Shown here piece after piece: positions 10,701 through 55,209 of a stretch of DNA of 64,000 bases (position 1 is its first letter; each line of letters starts with the position of its first letter). The translations under genes and the position numbers were made by a program. The notes below the pieces were generated by a model. It saw only the letters and a list, made by a program, of their open reading frames with translations. It was not told the origin of the DNA and made no database searches. The stretch is from Dromaius novaehollandiae (Eukaryota > Chordata > Aves > Casuariiformes > Dromaiidae), in contig NC_088110.1 in assembly GCF_036370855.1 (NCBI RefSeq), forward strand, positions 22,873,501 through 22,937,500, given 5' to 3'.

Positions 10701-13700
10701 ATTCCTCCTTCCTCAAGCCAGGATGATGTTCCTTAGGGTTTGGTGCTTAAGTCCGTGATAGTGCTGGCAAGGCATCAAGGGTGTTCAAAAGTTTCAAACC
10801 AAGTGCTGACAGAGTTGCTGGGCAACTGACACTCTTTAGAAATCAGGCCCCTGCCAGGGCAGCTCACATGCAGTTTTATAAGCCTAACGTTAGATACTTT
10901 ATTTTTGAAAGACCTCGACCTTAGTTTAATTCAAATTCAGATGCTATAAAACATTACGTATTCTCATAATGGATGTATATTTACAGATTTCTGTAGGTCT
11001 TCTCTGGCAGTGAACAGACTTGTTTGGCTTTTATCTGGAAGTTTTCACTATATTTCCATAAATATTTGTTTTGTTTGGATAAAAGTAATTCTCACTGTGC
11101 TAAAGGCACAGTGACTTCAAATGGACACACAAGCCAGCAAACTTCTAGGTGTGTCTTCTGGTACTTTCAAAAGGAACCAGCACCTGGAGGAGTGTGAGTG
11201 ATTTCTGAGCTCTATCAGAGGCACAGTGCTCCCTCTCCTGGCAGAAGGCAGAAAATTCAGAATTCAACTATGAAGAAACAGTTGCATTTCCTTAGCAGAA
11301 AGTCTAGTGTTTAAAAACAAGCAACAATAATCTCCTCCTTCCAAAAGGAAAGATTAGAGTCTTAATTCCACAAGAAATAAAGCAACGCTTTCCACAGCAT
11401 AGTAAGTTGCTTTCAGAAAGCAAAATGCAAAAGTCAATCCAGCGGCATCTGCTTTCATGAAAGCAGAAGGGCCGGCTTCAGCAACGGCATTACTAAACAT
11501 GTCTCATGCCCTTCTACAGAAACACAGTCTCAAGAGCATCATTTCTTAAACCAAGGAGTTTGGAAAGCTTAAAGTATACAATCTCCTCCTCAAAAATTAA
11601 CATTTTTGTCCTCAACTATAATCTAACAATTCTCCCTACACATCAGCCAGGCCCCCAGTCTATAATTAGCAACAGCCGTGAAAAGAAAATGTTCATTAGT
11701 GTTTTGCTATTCTAAAAGTCTTGTTTAGGGTGAATGACAGCGCTAGATATGCTGAGCAATAACCAGTGGACATTTAAAAATAATTACCTTGTGTTTAACT
11801 GCTGGCAAGGCATCTACCAGCGTCTGCAGTCCTTCATGATGTTCTCCTAGCTACAGGACACAGATAGGAGATGTTAAGTATCTACCTTATTCAGTGGTTT
11901 TGATGTGGAAAAAAATCTTAGAAGTATTTTGGACTATATCTGTTTTACCAATAATGACACTAGAAAGGCATCATTGCAGCTTTTATATAAAGTAAAATTA
12001 CCTTTAAAAATACTCCAATAACAGCCAAGCCGTTACCTTCCATTACAGCTTCTTCAAAAGTTGGGTACACAACAGCATTCCAGTGTACTAAATGCAGCTG
12101 AAATATAAATGAACGAGAAATCAACACATGCACAGAGCAGAGCAATGATATCAGGAAACTTGACCTATTTTGATCTTTGCTACATTCAGTCCTTGGCAAT
12201 TTGAGAAATGCTAAAGTGAGCTACCTCAGAAATCAGAGGCCACAAAAGCAAGGACAAAAATGTTATTGGAAGATAATGGTCCTTCCACCCACCCGTTTTT
12301 TTAAAGCAGTAGCCCAAGAACCATTTCACACTAATGAAAGGCATTTTGTTTGTGGGAAACGAACTACAGGAATGCTAATTAAAGGCACAAAAATAGTTTA
12401 GTGTAATTGGAACTGAGGAAAACTTCCATCTATCGTAACAGAAAGAACAGAATATGCTACTCTGCTAAGGAACTTTCTCCTGAACATAACACAAGCTTCC
12501 TTTGTGCCGTTACATGCCCAACACAAATATTCTCATGACAGGTTTTGTGCACTAAACAGAAAACCAGCACCAGTCCCAAAACTTAGTCATACAGTTTTGC
12601 TGTTAATAAACATCTTGCCAAGGAAATAGGCATCATTATGAAATCATTAAAAGGAGATAATCATCTTCTAAAAAATAAGCAATAATCATTTTTCAAATTC
12701 ATCATTTTTGGCAAATAATTATGTTTATACCTGTTATACCTTCCTCTCTGAGCAACTTGACCTGTATTTTTCCCTTTGGGCCCATCTTCTTTATTAACTC
12801 TCTTTCTGCCTCAGTACTTGTCTACTCACAAAAATTTTGCTACTTTAACATTTACATGCGAGGTAGAAACAGAAAATAAAACAATCACAATGACCATTAT
12901 ATTAGCATAGAAGCCTGCTGTAGATTATTCCAGTTATCAAAGTTTTTTTGTGCATTTCTTACAGTTATTACAACAAACTTTCTGACATTAACCAGGACTT
13001 CGGGCTTAGATACACAGGGAAGTTATCGTATATAAGGTGAGCAGGGTCAGGCTTCTCCAGTTACAGGTAGGAGTATGAGAATTAAATAATCTTCTATTTT
13101 TGCTTTAAATATTCATGTTAATGAAAACAGAATTTAGTATGTGTTTTATTACTCTGCAAGTGTTTGGTAATAGGAGACAAGGTCCTTTTAAGGCAGTAGG
13201 GACTGCAGGTGCACTAAACACAGTAGCTAAGATACAGTGCATCCACCGTACTCCCAGGAAAATAGGTCCTACACCTCTTATGAACACTTAGCTTACTGCA
13301 TCTCAGAGGTAAAGCAGTTACAAATCTTTTTAACGGAGATCTGAGCTTGTGCATTTTCCCTCAGCATTTGCTGTCTGTCTGATGAGCACCACATCAGCTA
13401 AGATCTGGAAGCTCCTTAAGGTAGGGAAAATAACTGCCTGTCTCAACCCTCTGTTTGCTTTCTCTCACCCTTTCCCTTTTAAAGCAGCAGTTGTGCCATT
13501 TCATCCGGACAGGCCTGGAATACCAATGATATTTTGCTGCCTGCCTTAGGCTCATCCAGCAGCTGCCACCGTGAGAATTCAGGGAAGAGAAAACCAATGA
13601 AATTTTCAGTCATGTGGCTAATGTTCAATTTAAGACTAACTTCTCCAGAAAATACAGTGGCTATGAACTTACTAATAAAAAGGTAGAAGAGCTGTGGCAC

Positions 13701-16700
13701 TTAGCAGGTCTGATTCTTAGTAAGCTGCAGTTCAAGTCAAACAAATTCTGTACTTTCTAGCAAGCATTACAGTTACAGACAGCCTGAAACACAGTGTCCA
13801 GCCCATGCAAGCATCTGCACTGTTCAGCATTTTCCCCTCATACCTCTGCTGGGTAAGCTTTACTGTCAACCGTGTGCTCTGAACCCCACTCGTTTATGGC
13901 TCCCCAGTGGAAGTGGAACTGCTTTAGCCTGTATTGGTTTTCCAAGGGACCTCCCATGATTGCTAAAAAACAAAAGACACATACATTAATGAACATGGTT
14001 TTGAACTGTGCAGAATAGCAACACAGTAAGATCCCCCTTCAACTTAACTTGTCCAAGAAAAATCAGCTGGAGCAACTGTCTTACTGCAACAGTCCCCTAT
14101 CCGTCAGGTACTTTTACAACTCACTTGGTTATGACAAAATTGTTCAAGGCAAAAATAGCACTATTTTCCCTGAAGTCTAATTTCACTATACCAAATTGGA
14201 GACAATAAACTTAGTCTCCTTATCCGTTTTCCCCAAAGGGAATACAACTTTTCCCAATTCACATGGAGTTTGGCAGAATCATGGTGACAACACAAATTCT
14301 ACATTCTTCTCCTGGAACAGGGATTTGAGAATTGTCTTACCACAGAAAACACGTACAATGACAAAGACAAAGCAATGGATACATCTATTAAATAACATCC
14401 CAGTGAAGCCTCGATATCTATGAGAAATATTGATGTTTCTTCAGTGACAATACAAGTCTTTAATATCCAAGTTTTTACTGATTCTGCCAGTAGAATCAGT
14501 ACATTGTGTCAAACATTCAAATCTTTTTTGAAAATGTACAGAAGTCCAAAAGTACTAATCTGCAAGAACCATTACTTACTGTGACACAGCTTTCAGACTA
14601 CATAACCAATGTTAAAAGATCTCCAATGTACCTAGAAAAATGGTGATATTGTGCCTATTGTAAAATGTTCAGTCTACGCACCACGCAGCATCCAAAAATA
14701 CAATCTGTCCGTGGGCAAAATTCCAAGTTGCTGGAAGCTCTAATGCACTATTTATCCATAAGCATGGGTAAATATTCCTTAGGTTTTGCTCTCCTGTTTT
14801 CAAAAGGCCTCTCATCATTTTGTAAATAATGTGAATGAAACCATCCATGCCTGGTTTTCTGTGTACTGCTGGTTTTAACTCATTTCCTCCTGACTGAACC
14901 AGGAGTACTGTACAAAGTCTTCTTGCTAGCCACTACATCACAGCATCTGCTCAGTTACAGATTGTAATTACTTTCAAAGGGCTAAGAAATCTGTAGCTGT
15001 TGAGACTGATTTGCTGATTTTACTTAACTGTACCTCATGCTTAAATTTTCCAGCAAAACACTGTACAAAGCACATAATCCCAACACTACTTCCAAAAATA
15101 AGTTAATCACTTTGATGCTAAGGAGAAAACAATGAGAGGTATTAGGAGCTTTTTTTTCCCCCCTTTCTTTTTTTGGAATGCCAGCAGATTTGAAATTCTA
15201 AGTTTGTTCCAGCAGGCCTGCTTCTGATGAAAGAGTAAGATAAAACAAGCTATACAGATTGGCATTTAATTAATTTCAACCACTGCTGCTCAGCTCTTGG
15301 CATAAATGCAAAAGTGTCAGTCATAAAATCCTGACAGACAAAGATAATTTGGGGGGGATGAGATGAAGATGGGGACCATACTGCCAAGTCTTATAAAGTC
15401 AGAATTAAGGTTTCTGTGCTCTTAATATCGTCCATTCCTGACTATGCAAAAATGCAAACCCACAAGTGACTACACTCGTGAATAATCGCGTTCATTTGAA
15501 CATTTGCTCGTGAGTGGTTAAGCACAGGCACACATACATATAAAATCAGGTTCTTACAGTGGACACTAAAAAAAGACATGAAATAAACACGAACTTACAG
15601 TCCCTCTCCAGGCATTTTTGCATTCTACTTCCTCTCAACTGTTTAAGTGTTGGCAATTTCAAAGCAAAAGGGAATTTTAAAGAGACTCTAATGAGGAGCG
15701 AGCGAAAGAATCACATCGGTTCTTTACTCTAGCCCTAGCTGCATTTCAGGCTCATTTCCCTGAAGCAGAGGGCACTCGCACACACAGACAGGCCCGTGTA
15801 CATACCTTCCCCAACCCTCTTCCTTCTTCATCCTCCTGCTCTGTTCATAAGCAAACACCCAACAGGAGCACTACCTTCACCTTCTGTCCAAGTCTTGTTT
15901 TGCCTCATCTTGGGAGTCCTGCACGCTATCCTGGATACACGCTTCATTTTGTGTTTTTCATCTTCTGCTTCAACTTTGTTGCCTCTTTTTGTTTGTTTAT
16001 TCATTCATAAGCTTTTCTTCTCTGGATTTCTATTACGGTTAGACAGAAGCTGGCAGAAAGAAAAACCAGAAATAGCAACAGTAGAGAGAAAAGTGGAGGA
16101 GGGAGGCAGGCACTTGGAAACCTGGCAGTTTATACAGCAACACCCCGTGATTTGCTGCTTCTCTGTCTGTCATTTTGGAGTTCTGTCACCGATCATTTAA
16201 TACCATTCTCCACTAGCTGTCATCACTACCCTGTTTTTCATCTTTCACTCTCCATTGACTTGAATTCATCCGAGGAAGATGATGATGATAAAAAGGCGAC
16301 CGTCCAGAAGGCGGCAACAAGAATGCTCGTGCCTAAAGATTTGTCAGGTGTTCAGTCTGCAGGATGAAGCAGCTGAGCTCTGTCAGAGCTGTGATTTGTT
16401 CTGAATAGCCAGCCTCTGAAAGGCCAGCACACCCTCTAATTGACCGTCCTGATGATCCCAGGTTTGCCTCTACATCACAGATACGGCCCCTGTGTATTTA
16501 AATGCTGCGTATTTCTTAAGCTGTTGCATGCACCCCACCTCTACTACATCAATTCTTGCAGCAAAAAATGACTTTGTTATCCATGGAACTGCAAACCACT
16601 ACACTTTTCAGGAACGCATCCTCAAATGATAGCGGGGTATGGCTGTATAAAGTAAAAGGGTATTAAAAGCAGAACAGGTCTAAAGACAGAAAGTTAAAAT

Positions 16701-19479
16701 CACTAATGAGCTTGTTAGTAAGTCTGTCTCCTCCAACACCACCTCATGAACACAGCTGCATTTTGTATTGTGAAAATAAAAGGGCACTACCTCCTGGTTC
16801 TTTATTACGTATTATAGCCCCATATTGTAGCCCCAAAATGAACAATTACCACAATACTCCCTAGCTGGAAACTAGTATACTGGGGGAACAGCTATAAACA
16901 ATAAAGATAAAAAACCTCATACGACACCCTGAAAACTCCATGCATTATACCACTGTCATCTTAGCTGTACTGTTTTTCCTCAGCCTGTTTCCAAACATCA
17001 ACCAAAAATACTGGTATCAAGGAGACAAAACATTTGTTTCACATGCCAAACACTTCCCAAGAACATTATGAAATCCCATAAGTTCTAGTATCTCTCATGG
17101 TAAGCAGACAGTCATTTTAAACAGATATGACCCTAACCAGACACATTCAAACTCATCCAGGGTCCCTCAACTTTTCCCTCCAAGGCAAGCTGAGTAGTTG
17201 GCATGAATCAGATGCTACTCAATGTTCCTGGTCAGTCGCTACCAGTTCACCCAGCTTTAATAAATAACCTCTTTATACATAATGGCAATACATTTTGCTA
17301 AACTCAACTTTAAAAGGAACAATGGAAAGGAAATCTTGAATTTGGTAGCAGTATCTTGATTTGAAAATCACTTGAATTTATAGAACATTTCAAAAAACAC
17401 AGCTGCTTCAGTCAGAGTAGTTAGTCGCAACAAATTGTTGAAATACATAACTGGGTTTTGCACATATGGACTTTTGTTTATACTGAAGCAACAGAAACAC
17501 ATACACCTGTTCCCTATGGTAGCAGCTCAGTATTACTTAAATCTCTGAAAGCTTGAGATAAGTATGTATGCTTTTCCACTGAGGAGTTCATTCTGCCACT
17601 GATTATTTATAACGCATTAAAAACATCTGTTAACATTTCAAAAGAGGTGAGTGGCAGATTATTAATGTTTAATGACGGAATCATATTTAAAGTTAAGCAG
17701 CTATACATATACACATTATACATACTACTGAAGATTGACTCGTGCAGACAAAGCTGTGATTTTATAAAGAGATAATCAAAAGGCAGGCCATTAACACTTG
17801 TTCGATAAGAATAAATGTCACCCTCCAGTGGAGGATTTATACACAATATCCCTGGTAATAACAATATAGTAAAAGTGAGTGCATAGACTTCTGCATTACA
17901 ATTCGCAAAGTTGTACGTTTCTGTTTAGCAAAAATATTCTTCTGCTGTGTATCTGTTTTCAACTTCTGTTTTGTTATTGATCTTGAGATTTTACTACACA
18001 CAAGGTTTGCTACTGAAGCATGAATCATACATTAGTTAGATCTTTCTGAGTTTTGCTTACTTGATCTATCAGTAGAGTCATCAAACTCAACCAGGAATGA
18101 ATACCCGTTGTTCCAGATGTGCAGACACGTGGCTGGGTCATAGCTGATTTTCAGGGGCTTCAGAAAGGGGTCATAAATGCTGTCTCTCCACTGGATATTG
18201 ATAGGAGACTGCCGTGTGCCTCCAGGAATGGAGAGCGGACTCTGCCAAAGTGGATGTACTAGAAGAAAAAGAAAAGAGTCAGGCTCTAATGCATGATGCA
18301 GAACTTAAAACTACTTTTTGGCAAGAAAAGGTCCTCTGGGATATTGGCTTTGAAGGCTAACTCAAGTCAGCTGATGCACCAGAAATTAAAGGAAATAATA
18401 CATTCCAGTTGTGCGACTCAGAGCTGCACAGGGAAGTGTAATCATTTTGTTCACAGCTCTGTTGATACCCTTCTGCATTAGCAAAACACTTCAAGGAAAT
18501 TCTGCCCCCTTGTCTGAAAACTTTCCTATTGCTATTGCTGATGGATTTTAACATGGCTTTTGTTTTACCGCTTTGCCATACCACTTCAGCTTTCTTTATG
18601 CACCAGTACCATCAATTGATGTCAGAACACAGCAGACACAGGATAATTCCTACTCTGGAGCAAAAATATTCTCTTTAAGGTGCCACAGTCTTTTGCCCAC
18701 ATGACTCTGTGTTTAGGGGTTACACCACTGCTAAGGGCACAGTTCTTCCGAGGCCCCCAAAGCAACACTGACCAAGACCACTTTGTGGGGTCGGGATCTG
18801 GAGCCAATCCCGGGTCTCCAGGCCTGCGAGAAAACCCTAGATGATCAGCTTCAAGGGCAGCTTGGGCATCCCAGACTTGCAGGACCGGGGCGGAGGCAGG
18901 AATATAGTTTCCACAGAGGTGTGCTCAGCTTAAAAATGGAACCGAGACCTGCGTGAGAAGCACTTATTTATCTGTGGCTTCCCGACAGCGGCAGCCCACA
19001 GACGACGGGTTTTGCGGCTTGCCTGTCCTGAGCGTAAAATACAGAGGCTTTGACGCACCGTGTGATGGGCTGCTCTCGCAGACAGAGCTGGCTCAAATCG
19101 GCCGCTTGTTTTTCACGAGGGAAAAGACCACTAGACAGCGTAAGGGCCGCTGAACGGAGCCACCTCCCCCCAGGCTTCCCCGGCCAAGGGCAAACTTCAG
19201 GCTCGAGGTGGCGCCGCCGCCGCCGCTCCCCGAGCGGCCACCGGGGACGCGCGGGCGGCGGGCGCTGCCCAGCGCTCGGGCATCTCCGCCCGGCGCCCCG
19301 GGGGGACGTGGCAGCAGGACGGGGACAGCGGGGCGGGGGGTCCGCGCCCTCGGGGGCCGGCGGGACTCACGGGCGTCTCGCAGGCGGTAGGAGCAGCAGG
19401 CACCCAGGCTGCACCGGCGCGTCCCCCGCGGCGAGGCGGCGGCCGCCGCCAAGGCCCGGCGCAGCAGCGGCAGCAGCAT
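7613..19479 (-). CDS. CA5A: CA5A, mitochondrial carbonic anhydrase V (7 coding exons, complete)
   Basis: Alpha-class zinc carbonic anhydrase that interconverts CO2 and bicarbonate in the mitochondrial matrix, feeding pyruvate carboxylase and carbamoyl phosphate synthetase. Joined coding exons (minus strand): 19479-19371, 18258-18061, 13962-13844, 12097-12002, 11850-11788, 9891-9736, 7792-7613. Lengths are 109+198+119+96+63+156+180 = 921 nt, i.e. 306 codons plus TAG; the human protein is 305 aa. All junctions are GT-AG and the frame is unbroken. Visible family signatures: [12 protein letters not shown], zinc ligands in QFHFHWG and SEHTVD, the structural Glu before LHLVHWN, and substrate-pocket SLTTPPLTE. 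The position equivalent to CA II His64 is Tyr (NNGYSF), as in CA V. CA5B is the main alternative; the neighbouring BANP and the human gene order favour CA5A. Confidence 0.95.
7793..9735 (-). other. CA5A intron 6
   Basis: Intron with GT-AG ends. It contains an A-rich stretch at 8244-8280 (a 16-base A run followed by A/G repeats). Open frames at 8680-8985 and 9054-9407 have no recognisable similarity and lengths expected by chance. Nothing else is supported. Confidence 0.6.
9736..9891 (-). CDS. CA5A: CA5A coding exon 6 (substrate pocket)
   Basis: A 156-nt exon of canonical family length. It encodes [20 protein letters not shown], including the Thr199-Thr200 pair (CA II numbering) that orients the zinc-bound hydroxide. 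It ends DENQ at donor CAG|GTAAAT. The acceptor is CTTTAG. Confidence 0.96.
9892..11787 (-). other. CA5A intron 5
   Basis: Intron with GT-AG ends. It contains a 13-base G run at 10236-10248, which is length-unstable and could pair into G-rich structure. The segment around 10380-10800 is slightly less AT-rich but I could not assign it to a repeat family. I see no gene. Confidence 0.6.
10236..10248. repeat. Poly-G tract, 13 bases
   Basis: Homopolymer within CA5A intron 5, 3' part. No function is evident. Confidence 0.9.
11788..11850 (-). CDS. CA5A: CA5A coding exon 5
   Basis: A 63-nt, phase-0 exon encoding [20 protein letters not shown] followed by Lys. It matches the 63-nt helix-coding exon of mammalian carbonic anhydrases. 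The acceptor is CTGTAG and the donor AAG|GTAATT. Confidence 0.92.
12002..12097 (-). CDS. CA5A: CA5A coding exon 4
   Basis: A 96-nt, phase-0 exon beginning LHLVHWN and ending [11 protein letters not shown], a hallmark beta-strand pair of the alpha-CA fold. The acceptor is TATTTCAG and the donor AAAG|GTAATT. The following intron is only about 150 bases (11851-12001). Confidence 0.95.
12098..13843 (-). other. CA5A intron 3
   Basis: AT-rich intron with GT-AG ends. I recognise no gene, RNA gene or repeat in it. Confidence 0.6.
13844..13962 (-). CDS. CA5A: CA5A coding exon 3 (zinc ligands)
   Basis: This 119-nt exon has the family's usual length. The acceptor is TTTTTTAG and the donor GAG|GTATGA. 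It encodes [18 protein letters not shown] and SEHTVD, which supply all three zinc-binding histidines (CA II numbering 94, 96 and 119). It ends with the Glu that precedes LHLVHWN. Confidence 0.96.
13963..18060 (-). other. CA5A intron 2
   Basis: The largest CA5A intron (~4.1 kb). An open frame on the plus strand at 15796-16200 is 134 codons but low-complexity hydrophobic in places and unrecognised, so I treat it as chance. I see no repeat family. Confidence 0.55.
18061..18258 (-). CDS. CA5A: CA5A coding exon 2
   Basis: This 198-nt exon has the length conserved in alpha carbonic anhydrases. The acceptor is TTCTAG and the donor A|GTAAGC. It encodes the start of the mature enzyme ([17 protein letters not shown]) and ends in the strand carrying [12 protein letters not shown]. 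Tyr replaces the CA II proton-shuttle His64, which is the CA V signature. Confidence 0.95.
18259..19370 (-). other. CA5A intron 1
   Basis: Runs from the CpG island into AT-rich DNA. The donor-proximal ~350 bases are still CpG-enriched and may hold promoter-proximal regulatory sequence. I identified no specific element. Confidence 0.55.
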
Positions 19480-19690
19480 CGCGGAGGAAGCCGCCGAGCC
19501 CCGGGCGCCGCCGCCGCCCCGCCCGGCCCCTTCCGGCACGGCCCCGCCGCCGCCCCGGCCCCAGGGGCGCCGGCTCTGCCTCCTGGCGGGGCGAGGGAGG
19601 GAGGGAGGCTCCCGCGGGCGGGGGCGCGCCCGTCCCCTCAGCCGGGCTCATCCGCGGCGTGACTCACCCCCAAAACACGCGTTTCCTCAA
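19130..19690 (-). promoter_or_regulatory. CA5A: CA5A promoter CpG island
   Basis: Very GC-rich, CpG-dense block surrounding CA5A exon 1, in sharp contrast to the AT-rich flanks. Just upstream of the start codon (minus-strand sense) are a GC box complement CCCCGCCC at 19517-19524 and an ETS-type CCGGAAGG (complement at 19529-19536). No TATA box is obvious. This is consistent with a broad, constitutive TATA-less promoter. The transcription start is not resolvable from sequence; CpGs thin out beyond 19690. Confidence 0.7.
19371..19479 (-). CDS. CA5A: CA5A coding exon 1 (mitochondrial presequence)
   Basis: Encodes residues 1-36 plus one base. The N-terminus [19 protein letters not shown] is rich in Ala, Leu and Arg with no acidic residue before the C-terminal end of the exon, as expected of a matrix-targeting presequence. 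The ATG has G at -3. The frame stays open upstream but I found no earlier in-frame ATG in the roughly 60 bases preceding it, so 19479 is chosen as the start. The donor is GCCC|GTGAGT. The exon lies inside a CpG island. Confidence 0.88.
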
Positions 19691-22600
19691 GAGTCCTCGC
19701 TCACGCATGTGTGAGGGATTAACGTTTCTTCTCGTCTAGCTCGTTTTGCTTGATTACGAGGCTTCAGTTTCTCCCAGGGGAAGGGTGATCGCTGGCCTGC
19801 AGGGATGCAGGTGGCCCTGGCACCGCCGGGATGCTGCCCCGAAGGCAGGCGCAGAGATGTCAGTGTTTGGGCCACTCTACCTGTCCACGCCTGTCCCACA
19901 GGCACGAGGTCTAGCACCGTGATGGGTCCACCCAAGGGATCATGAGAGGAGCCAACGGGGCAGACACTGCTCAGAGCAGGCCTAGATTAAACTGGGGTTA
20001 AACCCCTGATTACTCCATGCACCTCTTCTACGTTACAGCTACCCATGGGGAACACAAAGCAAAAATGGGAAGTCAGTAGAAAACCGCTGGTGATTGCAAA
20101 GGCACAGAGATGAAGTAATGTCCTAATTTCTGATGAGTCCATTGGGCAGCCAGGAAGAGAACACCGAGCCTCAATGCCTCTCCTTAATCTTATCACCTGC
20201 TTTGAATCGTATTTCCTGATTACTTTCTCAAAATCCTTCTTTTGCTGACCTGCACTTACCTTTTTGGGATCTTCACTCGTGTTAGTCAGTCAGTGCTTTT
20301 GAATTTTCATGAGAGATCTAACATAGCATCGAGAAAGTTTTGCTGAAGCGGAGAAAAAAATAGACACTCAAATTGTACCAACCAAGAAGTATGTAACAGT
20401 GTTTGCTCTAGTTTACAACATTTTGTAAGAAGTTTCCGTTGTATTCACAGTATAACGTTTATAGAGCACTCTGAGCTGAGTAACGGGTTGAAAATCTAGG
20501 GAGTGATTTGCTTTGAGTGACTACCTGCTCAGAAAATAGGTCATTGGGTGATGTGCAATGGCAAACAGCATGTGATCATTTGCAAGGGTCAGGATTTGTT
20601 TAACCTGAATTAAGTCACATTTTACTTTTTAGATTTTTTTAAGATATGCCTTCTGTTAAGTGTATGTATATATAGTAGCATTTGATTGTAAACATAATTC
20701 TTGGTTTGACTCTCATGATGTTTTTCAGTATGGACAACCTTGCTATCCTCAATGCATAATTTCCTACACCTTAAAAAGAAGAGAAATACTTGATGAAGTT
20801 GAAAACACCTGCTGCCCTTATAGGTCTTTATTCAGTCAGGCTTAATCACAGTTTAATAGAGTACTGATGGTGGTTGAGCAACAGTAGTCAGCACAGGTCA
20901 GATGTTTCTGTTGCTGAAGCTAGTTACAAATAACAAGTAGGTCCTTGTCAGGAAGACAACCCATATGAGCTTCATTCTTAACTACAGCAGGGAGCACTTG
21001 ACAGAGCTTCTGGAGCCCCAGATTTTTTTGGTATTGAGCATAAACAGGAGAGAGAGAGGTTTTTCCTCATATCTGCTAATGGAATAAGGAATAATGGAAG
21101 AAGGAATTCCCATTCCTTCACGTTCCATTCTTCTGTGACATTGTCCTCTAAATACAATTGACAATCTCGTGCCCCTTGAGGTCAGGACAACCAAATTAAT
21201 ATATGTATCCCCTACATCACAGTATAAATGCTTATGTTGCAGCATAACTTTGCTTCTATACAAATATCACTCTATTGGGCATGTTAAAAGCGATCTAAAA
21301 ATAAAGCTCAGAATTTGCCCAACCTGCTTTGCACTGTGGCATTAAGATGACCAAACTTTGCAAGTTTTTTTTAGGGATTTCATCATCAAGGTTTTGGAAA
21401 CTTGGAAGTTTATTATGGAGCTAAGGTGAAGGGAATGAGTCCATTGTTTGTGTGTTGGGCAATATAACCAAAGCAAAGATCTTGCTGCATAGGCTTGCAG
21501 GAATGATGGGCTGTTTAGCTGCAGAAGTAAAGGGAAATAACTTTGACTCACAACACACTGGTTTCCCTCCTGAGTCATTCACAGGATCTGCATCCGGTTT
21601 ACATTCACACACTGTTTCTTACTGAGCATAAATTTTAGTAAAACCTGAGCATTTAATTAAAAACTAAAACTCTTCTTCACTAGGGGTTTAAAGAAAACCC
21701 TTCAACGTATGAGCTGAATGGCAGTGAGATTTTTTTTTTTAATTGCAAACAGAAAGACAAAAGATAGGTGCAAAAGGAGACATAATGCCTTGGTCCCAGC
21801 AGTCTGCCAGTGTAGCCAGAATCTTCTCTTCTGGACCACTCCAGAAACAGAATTTCTTCTTGGTCAGTTCCCAGTCGCAAGCAATGGTGTTTTATGTAAG
21901 AGATGTGTGGTGCTCATGCAGCAAGCTAGAGAGGACAACAGCAGCCAGAATTACAGTGTCTCTGCCGTTGCCATACTTTGCCAAATTGTTATGTTTCTGG
22001 ACCATCTGGGAGGTTTCAGCTATGCCCTCTCTTGTTCCGAAACAGAGAATGCTTTCTGCATATGGAGACCACCACCAAAAATCTTCTGGCAGCTGGCCCA
22101 CTGGATATGTTGTCAAGTGATACAGGATGTATGTGGAAAGAGAAACCAAAAGCTCACCCACAAGGCCTGATTTTATATGTGCAAATTAAAGAAAGGTGAG
22201 AATTAAGATAGCTTGCAATTTGCACACTCCACTCTATGCCTGCCCCATTTACGATCTGCACGTTGAGGAAGGGTCTAGTGTATTATTTACTGTGCTGTTA
22301 TGGGCACATCTATGGTACTGACAGAAGAGTCATAGTAAATACGGCAATGTAAGAAGCGGGTCTGAGATGTGTCACCCCTGGAAGGGATCTGCTGCAAACA
22401 GAACTAATGTGTGCTCTTTTTGCCTTTCACCCAGTCAAAGTGATGCTCCATTTATGTTCACAGTGTTTATTTGGGGGTATCTTACATTTGCACTGTGTTT
22501 TTTTCCTCTTTCCCACTTGAGGTAGATAGATTTGGAATGTATGGATAGCTCCATACTTTGAATTGTTTTCTGTAATTAGTGGCAGCTGTAGATGCCTTAC

Positions 22601-33428: not shown

Positions 33429-35719
33429 AGTGAAGAGCTCATTTAACAGAGGGGGACCTACACTGAATTTCCTGACATTCATTGCACAGATATTCAGGTA
33501 AGCACATTCCTGAAAGCTCATAGAGCTTAGGAGTTTTTGTGGAGCAAAGAAAACACTTAATTATCCTGGGTAAATTGTTCATGTGCCGGTACCCTAAACT
33601 TAAGACTAAGAGCCAAATTTGGCCCTTGTGATTTAAGCACAGAGGAGGTCTCCATTGTTAGGTTGTGAACAGAGGAAGATCCCCTTTATTCTAGCAGTAT
33701 TCCCAGTCATACTTTCTGCTATGTGAAGAGTATGTCATACCTGGCTGCGCGACTCTCAGGGGGAACAATGGACAAGCTGTAATAGCAGTCAGGAGGTAAT
33801 GTCTTCATGATTATTGGTGAAGGGAACTCCCCCTGCTTGTAAGAAATGGCAGAAAAATATCTAAAATACTATCTCTGGAAAAGAGGGGATAAGCTCTTAC
33901 AAGACATAAGTAAATTGTACATTCCTGACCACTGCAATGATCAGAACAGATTGAGTAACCAGCAGGAGGTAGTGCCTTACCCTCTCTTAAATTGCTGTGT
34001 TTTTTATTACGTTGCTATTGGGTCCTGCCAGTATGTCCTGGAGTTACTGTGACTGCTGAAGGTGAATATTACAACTGGTTTATGACAGTTTTCTGTTTTG
34101 TGTTGTTTTACCTGAGATGTGATTTGCTAGCTATACCGAGAGGATCGGAAGCTCACAGCCTCAGCAGGACATGAGCTAATAATCTCTGGGAGGGAATCTA
34201 CTGATGAGAAAGCAGGGCAGCGGATTTGGATTATGATGGCAAAGGCTTTTACCAGCAACCTTCCATGGCAGATAGTGACGCACGTTGCATCGGTGTTTTT
34301 CTAGTTGGGATCTGGCAATTGCTTGAGTGCAAGCACAAATTGTTTCCCAAACGTGTTACAAGGCAAATCCATGCAGCAAAGCGTGAAATAACCCTGTGCA
34401 AAAAGTCACTTTTTAAGCAGTTTAACCTGTGAACTTGCTAATCTGCTTGTGAAGGAAGAGAACACAATAAATTAATCTATGGACTCAGCTGAACAGTTAC
34501 AAATCTGGAAGCAGAGGCAAGGGTTTTCCTAAAGTGCTGGTTGTTAATTCCCAGCTTCGTGACAACTCTTTAATACTAAAAGCACCAGTTTGAGAAGTTA
34601 CTACTAGCAGTTTCCGAAACAGGCAGTGTGCATGTGCCACTGTCAACATACATTTCCCTGCGTGAAACATGAGACCCCTTAAGCACCCCTCTTTGACCCG
34701 CTCCATAACTTCCAGGCAGATCAGCCAATTGCTGGTTCCCTGGGGACTGAAACGCTCTGGAAACTGGAGCTGCTGTGACACGTGCGGTTTAATTTCATGC
34801 ACTGGACACCTTGGGTTTGAACACGATGGAGGCACAGCACCTGAGAAGAGCATTACAAGCCACTAGCCCAACAGCTACGGCATCGGCTGCCTGCTGTTTA
34901 GCCACAGGCCTGTAGGTGTTGGGATAGGCAGTTACCTCCGAACGAGAATGGATTTAGTCACATACCATGACAGTGCAGGGCTGAACCACACTTCGCGTTC
35001 GAGGAACATTTTTTATGCAGAAGTCCGAAAGTCACCATTGGCCGAGCTGAGGCTGAAAAATGTAGGCCGATGACGCTCTCGTTTGGGCGACAACGTGGTA
35101 TATGAGGATATAGTGCAATAATCTTAAGCGTTTGTTTTCTTTCAGACAAACACTTCTTATCAGCGTCTCTCAGAGCCACTTGCAATTTTCCTCCACGCTC
35201 TCTTTTCATGCTTTTGCATATTGTTGTCATTCCCAGAAGGTTTCCAGAAGGTTTTCCACCTTCACCCAGTCATTCTGTTCTCACACCAAATGCAGGAATA
35301 AAGCAATAGAAAAAGCAGTCTGGTAAGCTAATTTAGCCAATTCCCACTTGCTGCCTGTTTTTCAGCTGTGTACTGAGCGCAGTGACATTTCTCTCCTTAA
35401 TATGACAGCTCACATTCGGATCATCTCATTTCAGTGATGCAAGTGCTCAGGGTCCCTTTGAGGAGGGAGAAATTAAATAGAAGGACTTGAGGAAGGAGTA
35501 GGAAGGACTTGAGACAGGAGCAGGAAAAAGCAATGTGCCAGCCAGAGCGAGAAGGGGTTGCTGAGCCTGCCCTCCGGCTTGTCCCTCATGGCTGTCAGGG
35601 CTGGGTTTGCACCTTAGGAGGGCGAAGCAGGACGAAGGGGGGAGAAAGAGAGAGGTGCGTGTTGAGGGACAGGTGGGCAGTTAGCGTGGCTGTGCGCGTC
35701 TGCTGCGTGTGTGGCGCGG

Positions 35720-35739
35720 ACTACAACTCCCGGCATGCA
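35720..35739 (+). promoter_or_regulatory. ZNF143/THAP11-type element 1
   Basis: ACTACAACTCCCGGCATGC matches the vertebrate promoter element ACTACAAYTCCCAGMATGC with one difference (G for A within the CCCAG core). ZNF143, with THAP11/HCFC1, binds this element near start sites of housekeeping genes. It is about 240 bases upstream of the BANP element. Confidence 0.75.
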
Positions 35740-35756
35740 CAGCCCCAGGCGCGTGT

Positions 35757-35775
35757 ACTACAGGTCCCGGCCTGC
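35757..35775 (+). promoter_or_regulatory. ZNF143/THAP11-type element 2 (degenerate)
   Basis: ACTACAGGTCCCGGCCTGC has the ACTACA and TCCCGGC blocks of the ZNF143 element but several mismatches. It lies in the same orientation as element 1, starting 37 bases later. It may be a decayed or low-affinity copy. Confidence 0.5.
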
Positions 35776-35808
35776 TCGGCGAGGGCGGGGGCGAAGGGCC
35801 GGCGCGCT

Positions 35809-35827
35809 GCCCTCTGGGAGTTGTAGT
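35809..35827 (-). promoter_or_regulatory. ZNF143/THAP11-type element 3 (reverse orientation)
   Basis: On the minus strand this reads ACTACAACTCCCAGAGGGC. The first 14 bases match the consensus exactly and the 3' part diverges, a form common in promoters. It faces opposite to elements 1 and 2. Confidence 0.7.
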
Positions 35828-35877
35828 CTGGGCCGGCGGCGCGGCGGTGAAGGGCGGCCGCGCGGCCGCGTGCCCCC

Positions 35878-35889
35878 TGCGCGTGCGCG
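35878..35889 (+). promoter_or_regulatory. Candidate NRF1 site
   Basis: TGCGCGTGCGCG differs from the NRF1 palindrome TGCGCATGCGCA at only two positions, one central and one terminal. It sits between the ZNF143 elements and the BANP element. A second GCGCCTGCGCGC lies near 35932-35943. In a CpG island such matches occur fairly often by chance. Confidence 0.45.
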
Positions 35890-35944
35890 GGCGCTCGGGG
35901 CGGGCGGGGGCCGAGCGGGAGCAGCGCGGCGGCGCCTGCGCGCT

Positions 35945-36027
35945 GCGGAGAGGGAGATCTCTCGCGAGGAAGGACGCCATTATCGCAGCCGCTCGACAAA
36001 CACCACGAGAATTCGGCACCACACACG
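35945..36027 (+). other. BANP: BANP exon 1, noncoding (5' end approximate)
   Basis: A candidate donor CACACG|GTAACC follows position 36027, immediately downstream of the core promoter elements. The exon has no ATG-initiated frame joining the BANP coding sequence, so it would be 5' UTR spliced to the exon beginning at 51982. The 5' boundary is a guess from promoter element positions. Other first exons or donors in the island are possible. Confidence 0.45.
35960..35969 (+). promoter_or_regulatory. BANP-binding element (TCTCGCGAGR) in the BANP promoter
   Basis: TCTCGCGAGG matches the 10-base palindrome TCTCGCGAGA at nine positions, with the 8-base core CTCGCGAG intact (35961-35968). This CGCG element is established as the site bound by BANP at CpG-island promoters when unmethylated. 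It lies about 60 bases before the inferred exon 1 donor, so at or just beside the transcription start. Autoregulation is inferred. Confidence 0.75.
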
Positions 36028-39000
36028 GTAACCGCGGCGCCCCGCGGCCGGACGGCTGGGGCTGAGCTCCCGGGGGGCCTCACGCCGCGCTTACGGCCGC
36101 GGCCCTCGCAGCCTCCCCGCTCCTCACAGCGCCGGCCGAGCCCCCGCCGCCGCGAGGCGGCGGCCGCGGGGAGGGGCCGAGGCGGGGGGGCCGCGGGCCC
36201 CCGCCCCCTCCGCCGGGCGGGGCGGGGGGGGCGGCCGGGGACTCGCCTCCTCCCGCCGCGGGACGCCGCCGCCGGGCCCTGCTCCTCGTCGCCTCGCTCC
36301 CCGCCTGCCTTCTCGGGCCTCCCCTTCCCCGCTGGGGCGCCTCGGTCCTGGCCCCCCCTGGCGCCCCCGCGTCGCGGGGGGGGGGGGCGGCCCGGGGCAG
36401 GCGGCGGCGGCGGGGGGCTCGGCCCCTCCGCGGCAGCGCCGCCGGGCAGCGTGCCCCCTCTGCCCCGTCCCCGCGGGGCTCGTGTTTCCTCTCCCTGAAG
36501 GACGGGGCAGCTCTGAGCCTTCTCTCCCCGCGCTGGCGCACACGCGGCGCCGCGGGCGCGGGGTATCGCAGCGCACCCTCCTCCCCTGTCGCGATAGACG
36601 GTGAATAAGCGGTGACAGCGGCGCTGCCTCTTCCCCCTCGCCGCGCCGAGGGGCCTGCTGGCGCGGAGAGGCGCCGTCCTGGGCCGGGGCCCTCACGTCC
36701 GTGCCTGGGGTGCCATGTTCTAGTCTCCTCATGTTGGTGACCTGGCCGCACGCTCCTCACTACCTCTCTCCCCTTTTTTCTTACCTGTCTTTTGAGTGGT
36801 GCGTTCTTTTAAGTGTTTTTTTCTTTTTCTTTTTTTTACTCCTTGTTGAGTGGGAAGTTGTGCGCTTAACCAAATATAGTAGTTTTATCCTGCTGTGGGA
36901 CATATAGTTTATGTACCAGTTTATTTTTAGTACTCTCAAGAGAATAAATTTTTTTTTTTTTTTAAAGGAAACAAGCTTGGAGCGATGTTATCAACCAAGT
37001 GATGGTTTCAGTTAAAGCAACTTTTGGATTGTTGTGAAATGATAGTTTGTAGGTATTTTTGCTATTTTTTTTTTAAGTTCCTTTCTATATGAGGTTATCT
37101 TAAATTTAGTACCCTACTCGTGTCAGTCTTTCAAGCGGTGAACATAAAACTTGTCTGTGGAATCTCGAATACTCAGGCAAAATCTGAAAAAAAATACTTG
37201 TCTTAAACATAAGTTTATTAAGTTCATTAATGGTGCCTCTTGTAACAATGGATTTATTCTGTTAGAAAGTATTAACGTATATGTAAAATATCCAAAGATA
37301 TCTAGCAGAATAACAAGTTGATTCTGAAACTGTATGAGCCCTACTGTGTACATTAAATGATAATCTTGGCATTAGTCCATTTTTCAATAATACATGAAAT
37401 GATGTTAGGAAGAAAGACTAGTTAATTTATTAAGAAGAGTAAAAGATTGAATTTGGACTTGGGAAATTGGCCATTTTCTCTGCTTCAGAGGATGAGAGTA
37501 TCTTGTAACTTTTTTTCTTTGTTTCATAATTCATCATCTGATTTATAACAACTGCAACTGGCTTTAATGTCTTAATTATCCAACCATGTTTAAGTTGTGT
37601 GGTTACAGGGCAGATCTTACTCCTTTAAATGAGTCTTAAATTTTAATTGAGTAACAGTGTCAGAAGCACAGCAGTGACAGAGCGAGCAGTAAGGGTATGC
37701 AGTACTCAACAGTCAGGATTCCACCAGCACGTGTTCTGCTGAAGAAGTTTTACGAAGCCTTGTGTTTCTTGCACATGGTGCTGTTCGTGGCACAGTGCAA
37801 GATATATGTTTTATACTGTCTTGTTCTGATCAGATGGAGAAAGATGACCTATACATAGCTCCTTGTAACCAGAAGTGATACTTAAGGGTTTACCTTGATT
37901 CTGCAAAGAGTAGTGCTCTGGCATAGGGCTCAGACCCGTGTTAATCACACTAATATACTCACGTTTGCAAGGATTTTAGGTCGTCTCTGCTCTTTATCTT
38001 GAGCTTTTTCCTAAACTTCTTAAGCTGATTTGCAGTTTGTGCAGGAAGAATATGCATCTCTGTTTCTTCAGAATTTACATGTCCTCATATCTTTCACTGA
38101 AGAATGGCTTGAATTGAAATTCCTGTGATGATCTTTAGAAAGTAATTGAAGGCTCATTCATTTTAAGAGGAAGAGATGGGCATTTATCTTTGTGTACAGA
38201 ATCTGTTTATGTGAATTGAACAGAACAGCAAAAGAGCTACTTGTAGTAGGAGATGATGCAAATCTAATGATTAGAACTAGAACAACAAAATGTCTATGTA
38301 TCCTAAACTTCTCCAATAAAATTACTTTAATGGATTTGATTTCCTTTAGTTTGGAACTTGATATTTAGTTGTTAAGTATTGAAGTAATTTAATTTGTTTT
38401 CTGTTTTTTTACATTTTCATTAAAAAGCTAAACGTATTCTTTTTTTCAAGTAAAAATAATAAAATGTCTTTAAAAGTTATGTCAAACACTTGTTTCATTG
38501 CAGTTTTAGGATTTTAAAGTTCCTGTTACGTGCTCAGTTTAGCCTACCATATATCAGACTGCATGTTGAGGACATAAAAAAAAGTGCACAAAAAAGATTA
38601 ACTTCTTAAAATCCTTTGCATTTGGAAACTTAAATAAAGTAATTTTCAGAGATGTCATCTGTTGGGCAAAATTATTTTATCATGGTTCATATTTATAAAA
38701 TCTTAACATAGACCACTTAAGTGAAAAATACATTAAGTTCAAATTTTCCTCTGGAAATTGGAGTATCATTATCTTGTGATGAAAAAAGAATGCATTTCTT
38801 CTATCCATTATGTGAACTGGTAGAAAGTATAAAGAAAAACAGCCCCTTTTTCCGTTCTCCACATACACACAAAGGCATCTGTTCCATGTATTTGCTTATC
38901 TGTCTCTAGCTTGCTATCAATATGTATATTCTACAAGTTTAAAGCTGGAATTACCTTATTTTTCCCCTGGGGGTTGGGGAGAGGAATGGTAAAACAGGAC

Positions 39001-51981: not shown

Positions 51982-52121
51982 GATTGAATGACTTGTAAAT
52001 TTACTTATTTGGGTGCCTTCAGTGGTGTTTGACTGGATATTGTGGTTCTGAATGATGTCAGAACAGGATTTGGCAGATGTCGTTCAGATTGCTGTTGAAG
52101 ACTTGAATCCAGATAACCCAG
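51982..52121 (+). CDS. BANP: BANP exon 2 (start exon; coding from 52052)
   Basis: The acceptor is CTGTTTTTCAG and the donor CCAG|GTACAG. Coding begins at ATG ATG (52052-52057), giving MMSEQDLADVVQIAVEDLNP, then DNP and one base. This matches the N-terminus of vertebrate BANP. TGA at 52049-52051 is in frame and directly abuts the start, so no N-terminal extension is possible. A short upstream ORF lies in the same exon. Confidence 0.93.
51988..52032 (+). promoter_or_regulatory. Upstream ORF in the BANP 5' UTR (14 codons)
   Basis: ATG at 51988-51990 opens a 14-codon frame closed by TGA at 52030-52032, 19 bases before the BANP start. Its ATG has T at -3 (ATTGAATGA), a weak context, so leaky scanning is expected. 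It could still dampen BANP translation. Its effect is inferred. Confidence 0.6.
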
Positions 52122-55100
52122 GTACAGTAGAGATGGTAGTGGTGACATAAGAAAGAGCACTCATAGTATGGCCCATTAAAATGGGGGAAATCACTGCTAT
52201 GCTTTTTGTAGAAATGTAAAGCGGTGCTGCAAAATTTTTCTTGTCCAAGATGGACTCATTCAGGCTATATACCAAATTTCAATAACTTTACTTGTATATC
52301 TTCAATATTCTTTAAATCAGTTTTTCTTGTTTTCTTTAAAAGTCTTTATGCTGTCTGTTTTTGTGCAGAACTAGACCAGTTCCAAAAATCTATATTGAAA
52401 TATGGTCTCTAGCAAGCTTTTGGTTTTGTTCAGATTAAGTATCTGTTTTAGACTTCCCTTCAAATAAGAACTGACACCCATCTATTATGAATCTTTGTTT
52501 ATGAGGAAAAAATGTTCTACCAGTAAAATTATTAAAATTCCTTGTATGTATAATGAAATGACAGTAAAATTGAAAATTGCTTCTGAAGGAAAATATTGTG
52601 GTTTCCCTTACTTAAGCATTGATGTACTGAAGGAAAATGTCCATGTTAAAATCAGCTATAGACTTTGATCCTACGCTGTCATGTATATGCGAATAAGCAT
52701 TGGCTGAAAAACAGTAGCTACAGAGTATTGAAAATAAAAAAAATATATCAATTTTTTTTTATTCTGATGCAGAACAAAAAGCAGTTCTTTCAGAAATGTT
52801 CCCAAAGAGATGGAGGAGAAACTGAGACCCATCTCTCTCAGTCTAGCCAGTAACTTGGTGGTCAGGGCTATCACCTGTGATATGGTCAACCCCAAACAAG
52901 TCTGTCTTTGCTTGATTTGATAAAGGATTTGGAAAACCTGGTCAGGTTTCAGCTGTGAGGCTGTTTCAGGGTTCTACCTCTTGATTTTACCAGCAAGGCC
53001 TTTAATTTCTAATTTCAGTTCATTTTTGTTACTGTTTCTTCAAAATGTTTACCTTTAGATGAAAGGCTGTTACATCCTATAGGTCTGGATACCCAAGTGT
53101 TTATTTTGGAAAATTGCAGGGTTTTGTTCATCTATGCTGGCAGAAAATTACCCGTTCCTAAGCTGAGTGGAGTGTGGGTGAAATCCTGTATTTTTACAGA
53201 ATTTTACTAGTACTATTTATGGTTTTGCATAGGCGTGAGGCTTCAGTGTGGGAGAGGAGAGCTGCCTCAAGTTTACAGAGGGAAGGAAAGGAAAAGGGAG
53301 GCTGTCAAAGCAGAACAGCTGATGTGGCAACTCTGCTACCTCATGATAATTTCCTAGTAAATAAATCCAAACCAGTGCTTGAGTTTTACATCTTCAGTGC
53401 GGTCTTACATTTGGGTAAACGTGTTTTGAGAAGTGAATTGTCATATCATTAAGAAAAACACAAGTAAGCATAAATGAATGCATACAATAAGTTAACTAGA
53501 CTCCCTTTTAAGTGTCTATTTACTGTATTTTTGAGTCTTGCCCTCTTTTGTTGTAGGCTATGACCATGCTTTTTTTTTATTTGCAGTTGTGCTGGAAAAT
53601 CATGAAGTGACAGATGAAGATGTAGAGCCTGCTCTGAAACGTCAGCGTATAGAAATTAACTGCCAGGATCCGTCTATTAAGGTTATGATAATTCCTTTTT
53701 CTGTTTTTATTCATAATGCCAATTCAATTATCTTTATTTGGGGAAAAATATTAAAAGCAAATGATGTTTAAAAAAAAACCCCAAACAAATGAAGTTTAAA
53801 CACAATACTGGGATTATTCTTACCTCTCTTGTGAACGTTTGTGTGATCATTTTTCTGGATAAACTTTTAAATCCTGATGATTTAATCTTCCAGTGCAAAA
53901 TCAGTAGCCAAACTTTTGTATGCAATATAAAATTTCATTCAAAATTAATTCCTGTGGCTCAAATGTCACTATTCCTACATCTTTTTTTGGGAAAGTGAAT
54001 AAACTTGACCTGAAAGATGAACTTGATCTTATATCTGTTTTACAATATGCAGTTACTTCAGCATGTTTTAAGCTATTATTTTAAACTAATAACATTCTCT
54101 TTGTAATTCAGCTGCACTTAGTTCAGGCTCAGTAGCTCAGGCTTTTCTGTGCTTGCAAAACTTACTGCTGCCACTAGTGTTTTTTAGTAATGTTTTTGTC
54201 TTGCAGCATAAACATATGAGTAGTATTTTACTGCCATGCACATTTAGTAGTATGTAATTCTGCATTCTTGGAATTGTCACAAAAACGGAAGCTCTGTATT
54301 AAGAGAGTGCTGGGGCAGCAGCATTGTAAAACAGCTTCATGGGTGTAAATTGTAGCTGTAGCCACAAGATGGCATGGTTGCTGTTTGCAGGGGAGAATGT
54401 GTGTCTAACATCAACCTTTACTGGTCTGTTTTTCTCCCAGAAAAACCCAATTAGAATATACTTATTTTTAAAATAGAATTGCTTAGGAAAACAGATTTTA
54501 TTTATTTACTTTTCTTGATTTGCTGTTCAGAAGGAAACTAGAGTGAGTGTTATTTATTGTATCTGAAATTATTTGTGTTGCTATTTCTACTGTAATCATC
54601 TGAATTTATCTGTTTGAGCATGAAAATATCTTATTTAACTTTATCCAACAGGATGCTTTCATGGATTTATAATCCTTTTGTTTTTAAATATATCAAATGA
54701 AGGTTTTGGCATGCCATTTTAAATTGTTTTGTGGTGTATAAAATCATACTAACAAAGTGCTCAGGTGACAATGTGTTTGGCTTGGATGCTTTTGGCTTCT
54801 ACATAAAGGACTGGAAGAATCTGAGAATGCTAAAATGCTCCAGGATGTCATCAGCTTTATACACAGATGAATTTTGTTACTAGGCACCTTGCTAGTACCT
54901 TTAGAATTGTTCTCCAGTCACATTTATCTGCGGCTTGCTTATGTGTATGTTGCTGGAGATAAATGCAAAGTCTTTAAAAACAGTTTCTTTTGCGCTCTCC
55001 CCTTTCTAGTCATTCCTGTATTCCATTAACCAGACAATATGCCTGCGGTTGGATAGCATTGAGGCAAAGTTGCTGGCACTAGAGGCTACCTGTAAGTCCT

Positions 55101-55209
55101 TGGAGGAGAAGCTGGACCTTGTCATGAACAAACAGCATAGCCCTATCCAAGTCCCCATGGTGGCAGGTTCTCCTCTTGGCGCTACCCAGACGTGCAATAA
55201 AGTACGATG
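52052..55209 (+). CDS. BANP: BANP, BEN-domain nuclear protein / SMAR1 (5' part of CDS, codons 1-121)
   Basis: BANP is a nuclear DNA-binding protein that recognises unmethylated TCTCGCGAGA at CpG-island promoters, opens chromatin and activates essential genes. It is also described as the matrix-associated regulator SMAR1. Joined coding exons in the window: 52052-52121, 53587-53681 and 55010-55209, total 365 nt. The N-terminal acidic segment, a KRQR basic patch and the coiled coil (about residues 66-98) are visible. The DNA-binding BEN domain is encoded further right, outside the window. The gene is therefore incomplete here through truncation of the window, not damage. Confidence 0.94.
52122..53586 (+). 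other. BANP intron 2
   Basis: AT-rich intron with GT-AG ends. It contains a poly-T/A-rich patch near 52735-52765 but no recognisable gene or repeat family. Confidence 0.6.
53587..53681 (+). CDS. BANP: BANP coding exon 3
   Basis: A 95-nt exon after a strong acceptor (a T run ending TTGCAG). It encodes VVLENHEVTDEDVEPALKRQ and then RIEINCQDPSIK, a close match to BANP. The basic KRQR patch may contribute to nuclear localisation. The donor AAG|GTTATG is weak at +3 to +5. The exon ends in phase 0 at codon 55. Confidence 0.93.
53682..55009 (+). other. BANP intron 3
   Basis: AT-rich intron with GT-AG ends. No gene, RNA gene or repeat was recognised. Confidence 0.6.
55010..55209 (+). CDS. BANP: BANP coding exon 4 (coiled coil)
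   Basis: A 200-nt exon, acceptor CCTTTCTAG and donor GATG|GTAAGA, encoding codons 56-121 plus two bases. SFLYSINQTICLRLDSIEAK begins a heptad-like helix continuing through LEATCKSLEEKLDLV, the BANP coiled coil, probably used for dimerisation. NKQHSPIQVPMVAGSPLGAT follows. It matches BANP almost residue for residue. The next exon should begin with the third base of the Cys codon and is beyond the window. Confidence 0.95.

Follow-up and report, generated by a model that had tools for sequence, protein, structure and literature searches.

The stretch of DNA analysed here (the window) covers 64 kb of the emu genome (Dromaius novaehollandiae, C13:22873501-22937500) and contains the 5' part of a gene that the first-pass annotation had named BANP. 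Coding stretches at ~52052, ~53586 and ~55031 match the human BANP sequence. Beyond the window, on its downstream side, a BEN-domain exon (L005:8664-8906) has matches to PDB chains entitled 'Protein BANP' (E 1.5e-49) as well as to the Pfam family BEN, and this evidence is independent of the human BANP sequence. Together, the three exon matches and the PDB and Pfam matches bear out the identity of the gene. The exon with the ATG lies 16 kb from the CpG island at the 5' end. The coding exons within the window are:

52052..52121, + strand: first coding stretch of BANP (MMSEQDLADVVQIAVEDLNPDNP), with the donor CAG/GTACAG (match to human BANP)
53587..53681, + strand: BANP coding exon (VVLENHEVTDEDVEPALKRQRIEINCQDPSIK; match to human BANP)
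~55034..55209 (ends approximate), + strand: BANP coding exon with a coiled-coil-like stretch (match to human BANP)

Searched against the PDB, the coiled-coil exon gave six weak matches, all of them to designed coils, and the three Pfam matches of the joined N-terminal BANP exons were all under the curated cut-offs. A second genome match (L002) was dropped as a match of CpG-island composition; this locus resembles an ARPC5-type first exon.

Upstream of BANP and divergent to it, a carbonic anhydrase gene occupies window positions 9646-19400 on the minus strand, with Pfam Carb_anhydrase matches in 3/3 exon-sized frames. We take this gene to be CA5A, which adjoins BANP in human too. The stretch with the CpG island of the carbonic anhydrase gene (19000-19800) contains no CGCG-type element.

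The BANP promoter

The promoter setting claimed for the element holds, as it lies in a CpG island at the BANP 5' end. The CpG observed/expected ratio is 0.85-1.18 and the G+C content 0.72-0.84 in the four bins of 250 bp between 35751 and 36750, and a ratio of this size suggests that the island is hypomethylated in the germline. The features around the presumed start are:

35500..36720 (limits approximate, ~1.2 kb), unstranded: CpG island with the BANP 5' end, from composition
35720..35731, + strand: ZNF143/SBS-type site ACTACAACTCCC (pattern scan)
35757..35768, + strand: ZNF143/SBS-type site ACTACAGGTCCC (pattern scan)
35816..35827, - strand: ZNF143/SBS-type site ACTACAACTCCC (pattern scan)
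35878..35888, + strand: NRF1-like site TGCGCGTGCGC (motif match)
35975..35983, + strand: YY1-like site CGCCATTAT, starting six bases after the CGCG-type element (motif match)
35970..36027, + strand: stretch of a putative non-coding exon 1 that ends at the donor candidate ACG/GTAACC

The three ACTACAnnTCCC sites fall within 108 bp (0.11 expected per window; three in 0/100 shuffles) and are the only ones in 304 kb around the window. We take ACTACAnnTCCC to be the ZNF143/SBS word. GC-box (Sp1-like) words are also present in the island, and ZNF143-, NRF1-, GC-box and YY1-type words typically occur together in housekeeping promoters with CpG islands. Judged by sequence, the three ZNF143-type sites are a stronger predicted promoter signal than the BANP word. 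For SBS sites, a presence in promoters numbering in the thousands is stated in a text in which the letters ACTACA do not appear (PMC11687419).

The end of exon 1 can be placed in two ways. At the donor ACG/GTAACC, the last exon base is 36027, which leaves 58 bases from the element to the exon end and agrees with the ~60 bases to the likely donor that had been proposed. This donor is not unique, as the rival ACG/GTGAAT, with 36600 as its last exon base, scores 6.4 against 4.7 on the same matrix, and an alternative exon 1 end at 36600 is possible. Within window positions 36587-36600, the string TGTCGCGATA ends 4 bases before the exon end at 36600 of this top-scoring donor. Another string, GAATTCGGCAC at 36009-36019, matches the first bases of a widely used cDNA-library adaptor; this is probably a coincidence, but it might mislead an annotation of exon 1 from cDNA. 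Exact scans with words from exon 1 gave 0 matches in viral contigs and in the genome contigs searched, sets without other vertebrates. The text matches to these words, in the portions of papers covered, concerned E. coli assays and DNA polymerase eta and were rejected as unrelated. Rfam returned 0 matches at gathering scores, a result that is uninformative for this promoter.

The CGCG-type element

The CGCG element TCTCGCGAGA is reportedly the BANP motif, an assignment said to go back to Grand in 2021. A window scan confirmed the proposed 9-of-10 match to this palindrome, with its core intact, in the BANP promoter, and also located a second, more degenerate element:

35960..35969, + strand: TCTCGCGAGG, AGG-flank variant of the BANP/CGCG element TCTCGCGAGA, 1 mismatch, CTCGCGAG core intact (pattern scan and shuffles)
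36587..36596, - strand: second CGCG element TATCGCGACA, more degenerate, fitting TMTCGCGANR (pattern match to the consensus)

The word TCTCGCGAGG is shown by the analysis, as are BANP itself, its CpG island and the motif words nearby. It contains two facing CTCG half-sites, which form the CTCGCGAG core. The second element is its nearest relative, 627 bp downstream, and fits TMTCGCGANR, which we take to be the consensus of the element. No perfect TCTCGCGAGA partner lies near the BANP-promoter copy in the window scan with up to one mismatch.

Written as TCT-CGCG-AGG, TCTCGCGAGG differs by one change from the TCT/AGA flanks and falls within the single-nucleotide variation described for the element (PMC6192621). 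In a bidirectional reporter, CCT, AGG or ATG flanks lowered activity, and ATA or TAT flanks were about equal to the consensus (PMC6192621). As the opposite strand of TCT-CGCG-AGG reads CCT-CGCG-AGA, the window copy corresponds to a variant of reduced activity. Imperfect palindromes can still drive transcription, with lower efficiency for AGG (PMC6192621).

The position of the element can be compared with known start sites. Zebrafish targets carry the motif 20-70 nt upstream of their starts (PMC9363121), and the starts most used in a reporter were 28 and 51 nt from the element. With 58 nt from the element to the exon end at 36027, these distances leave an exon 1 of ~39 nt or shorter, so either the start is closer to the element or another donor (36600) is in use. 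YY1 sites favour positions downstream of starts (PMC11269187), and the YY1-like CGCCATTAT at 35975-35983 would suit a start closer to the element.

Chance expectation

No word in the 64-kb window other than TCTCGCGAGG comes within one mismatch of TCTCGCGAGA (0.25 expected; at least one in 22/100 shuffles), and the CTCGCGAG core occurs once (0.06 expected; present in 6/100 shuffles). For a local expectation, 5000 dinucleotide shuffles were made of each of two regions, the 1.2-kb island and the 200-bp proximal region (35860-36060). A match of at least 9/10 with the core arose in 115/5000 island and 29/5000 proximal shuffles, the bare core in 459/5000 and 114/5000, and the exact word or its complement in 47/5000 and 7/5000, respectively. 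Markov estimates for matches of at least 9/10 with the core were of the same order (0.024-0.032 expected in the island and 0.005-0.020 in the proximal region). Whether the element exceeds chance depends on the region considered.

The word may be a CpG-rich 10-mer without function in a CGCG-dense island, as the BANP island holds 32 CGCG in 1.2 kb. We regard this as a serious possibility, close behind the reading as a weak element set out below. It is favoured by the 115 island shuffles with a match of at least 9/10, and opposed by the rarity of the exact word or its complement in the 200-bp proximal shuffles (7/5000) and by the closeness of the element to the probable start. Two TMTCGCGANR matches per island were seen in just 4/10000 shuffles, which also argues against chance, in a test that was picked post hoc. 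A looser element rule (1 change per flank) gave at least one match in 2470/10000 island shuffles and at least two in 475/10000, and was rejected as evidence.

The neighbouring islands bear on the same question. By our own criteria, the 304 kb of contig sequence that surround the window contain 26 CpG islands (39.2 kb), two of which hold the exact TCTCGCGAGG and a third the bare core. The second exact copy (L026:8119-8128) is in an island 38 kb away, 1 of the 25 other islands, and favours chance at BANP. It follows the start codon of a gene that reads MSGNAVKKRSSAASSASS... by ~0.7 kb and lies past the apparent exon 1 donor, and so apparently in the first intron. We take this gene to be SLC7A5. 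The two copies share the same 10-mer and a CpG-island setting, but the SLC7A5-like copy sits inside the gene and away from its start, unlike that of BANP, and so the identical word also occurs in an island away from a promoter start.

Genome-wide word counts

Words were counted across the whole emu genome (1.468 Gb), each set against its own kind, as palindromes and non-palindromes are not directly comparable. The perfect TCTCGCGAGA has 274 sites against 123 for its flank-exchanged form AGACGCGTCT, the negative control of the published reporter (PMC6192621), and is thus enriched 2.2-fold over the flank-swapped control in this genome. The AGG word TCTCGCGAGG has 277 sites. Its flank-exchanged form AGGCGCGTCT has 203, including tandem arrays on C6 and C7, and CTTCGCGAGG, which has the letters of TCTCGCGAGG and keeps the TCGCGA centre with one half-site broken, has 307. 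The AGG variant is therefore not clearly enriched over its letter-matched controls. As its count is at or near theirs, most genomic copies of the AGG word are probably due to chance, and this again favours chance for the copy at BANP.

Words read backward were all more frequent than the words themselves, with 1382 sites for the reverse of TCTCGCGAGG, 704 for that of AGGCGCGTCT, 1318 for that of AGACGCGTCT, 858 for that of TCTCGCGAGA and 1257 for that of CTTCGCGAGG. Taken at face value, these controls would mean no enrichment, even for the perfect TCTCGCGAGA. They were set aside because reversal turns CGCG into GCGC, which alters the number or setting of CpGs.

Some AGG copies are probably real. 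Among the matches listed for the C1-C3 range, 3/49 AGG copies have a perfect copy at a distance of 23-43 bp, compared with 0/30 for the control words. About 0.1 would be expected even if every one were in an island, with islands assumed to take up 2% of the range. These three copies are good candidates for functional weak partners of the perfect element:

C1:153133960: AGG copy 23-43 bp from a perfect TCTCGCGAGA (proximity scan, among the matches listed)
C2:119480662: AGG copy 23-43 bp from a perfect TCTCGCGAGA (proximity scan, among the matches listed)
C3:80446006: AGG copy 23-43 bp from a perfect TCTCGCGAGA (proximity scan, among the matches listed)

Two samples of 20 sites describe the surroundings of the words and are descriptive only. 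Among the AGG sites (every fifth of 100 listed out of 277), 12 are in CpG-rich DNA and 1 has another element within 200 bp; among the perfect sites (20 from 50 listed out of 274), the numbers are 16 and 4. ZNF143-type sites within 200 bp were seen for 2/20 sampled AGG sites (L028 and L034) and 0/20 perfect sites, which is too few to judge.

Possible recognition by BANP

BANP had been described in the first-pass annotation as a methylation-sensitive activator that acts through the CGCG element. Three papers agree (PMC9363121, PMC11472053, PMC9729108), although the BEN domain alone is reported to be methylation-insensitive (PMC10206803). In the complex, Ser313 makes contact with T4 and Arg316 with the second CGCG guanine, and C3 is reached through water (PMC10206803); further contacts are at G8 and T9' (PMC11472053). 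Mapped by us onto the oligonucleotides, the contacted bases fall in CTCG, which is intact in both half-sites of TCTCGCGAGG. The base pair altered in TCTCGCGAGG is named in these passages solely for a backbone contact, at T11' (PMC11472053), which suggests that the altered base is not one read by BANP. A protein-binding array preferred TCXCG, with the outer T included, and one half-site of TCTCGCGAGG is without this T. It is a fair expectation from these contacts that the affinity of BANP for TCTCGCGAGG would be reduced yet non-zero.

The element could also be read chiefly by other proteins, namely ZBTB33/Kaiso when it is methylated, DYRK1A or TCF7/TCF7L2, which have all been named as users of TCTCGCGAGA (PMC10813206). 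We consider this very improbable, as BANP loss closes motif sites in zebrafish (PMC9363121) and, in mouse ES cells, lowers synthesis across the group of 455 ChIP-defined targets (PMC10272207). These targets were set against 10,641 non-targets and make up ~4% of the analysed genes (PMC10272207), so the status of BANP target is neither rare nor the rule.

Does BANP regulate its own gene?

That BANP switches on its own gene is possible but unproven. True autoregulation would require BANP binding at its own promoter that is firm enough to determine the BANP level, whether through a positive loop holding the island open and free of methylation or through dose sensing. In its favour are the element and where it is placed. 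In homozygous zebrafish banp rw337 mutants the banp mRNA is undetectable (PMC9363121), as would also be expected from a loss of self-activation. However, rw337 is a splice mutation that yields a premature stop, and the authors suggest mRNA decay (PMC9363121). As a loss of self-activation would look the same as mRNA decay, the missing rw337 mRNA is uninformative on autoregulation. The same study lists 31 motif-bearing down-regulated genes (PMC9363121). The weak variant, its presence as a lone copy and the several other activator-type sites argue against autoregulation, and nowhere in the literature searched, as far as its texts were covered, was BANP said to bind its own promoter or to regulate it. 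Autoregulation in this sense appears unlikely. Likewise unlikely is a methylation-gated positive loop, in which BANP would hold its own island open via a deliberately weak element. If such a loop were true, expression would hinge on BANP dose and island methylation, and the gene would be shut off heritably if BANP were lost or methylation gained. Chromatin opening by BANP has been reported for several hundred promoters. Were the BANP promoter itself among these targets, BANP dose would be self-set and methylation-gated, which would give a simple account of targets that are kept or lost together.

A proposed weak element in a multi-factor promoter

Our preferred reading, held tentatively and with a probability of roughly 45%, is that TCTCGCGAGG is a weak BANP element, acting as one of several inputs to a CpG-island promoter of the ordinary multi-factor type. 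Such a promoter would drive BANP, with one weakened CGCG copy near the start. Full-length BANP is an oligomer and could, with both CpGs unmethylated, occupy the two CTCG half-sites with one BEN domain apiece. The outcome would be a modest positive input beside the ZNF143-type, NRF1-like, Sp1-like and YY1-like sites, and at most a weak positive loop, not a switch, would be expected. The BANP occupancy of TCTCGCGAGG, its sign and its size are what we infer here.

This weak-element reading is favoured because the copy lies in the island before the donor candidate, where matches of at least 9/10 with the core arose in just 29/5000 proximal shuffles, because the CTCG contacts are intact and imperfect palindromes are still active, and because the perfect word is in excess (274 vs 123). 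The CpG-rich setting of 16/20 sampled perfect sites and the 3/49 AGG copies near perfect ones, among the matches listed, point the same way. It is made less likely by the AGG counts (277 vs 203/307), the SLC7A5 intron copy, the absence of a perfect partner nearby, the missing outer T of TCXCG and the exon 1 of ~39 nt or less that the known start distances would imply for the donor at 36027. Of the original identification as a BANP element, the gene, the setting and the core have stood; the weak AGG spelling, the genome-wide counts and the SLC7A5 copy tell against it. The general lesson is that near-matches in CpG islands should be judged by their exact flanks and against letter-matched control words.

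Comparison with known systems

The promoter of the same gene in human, where SMAR1 = BANP, has been studied with respect to p53 (PMC1924604) and TOPORS (PMC8978522). The p53 study assayed DNA directly upstream of the ATG (PMC1924604), whereas in emu the ATG exon is 16 kb from the island; the TOPORS study assayed DNA 713 bp upstream of a start (PMC8978522). A BANP site does not figure in the passages of these two papers covered here.

The closest parallel is the known BANP/CGCG element TCTCGCGAGA itself (PMC6192621, PMC9363121). The emu copy shares with it the CGCG core, TCT on one side, a CpG island and a location near the 5' end of a gene. It differs from the known element in that AGG, a flank reported to be less active, replaces AGA on one side, and in that it is a lone copy.
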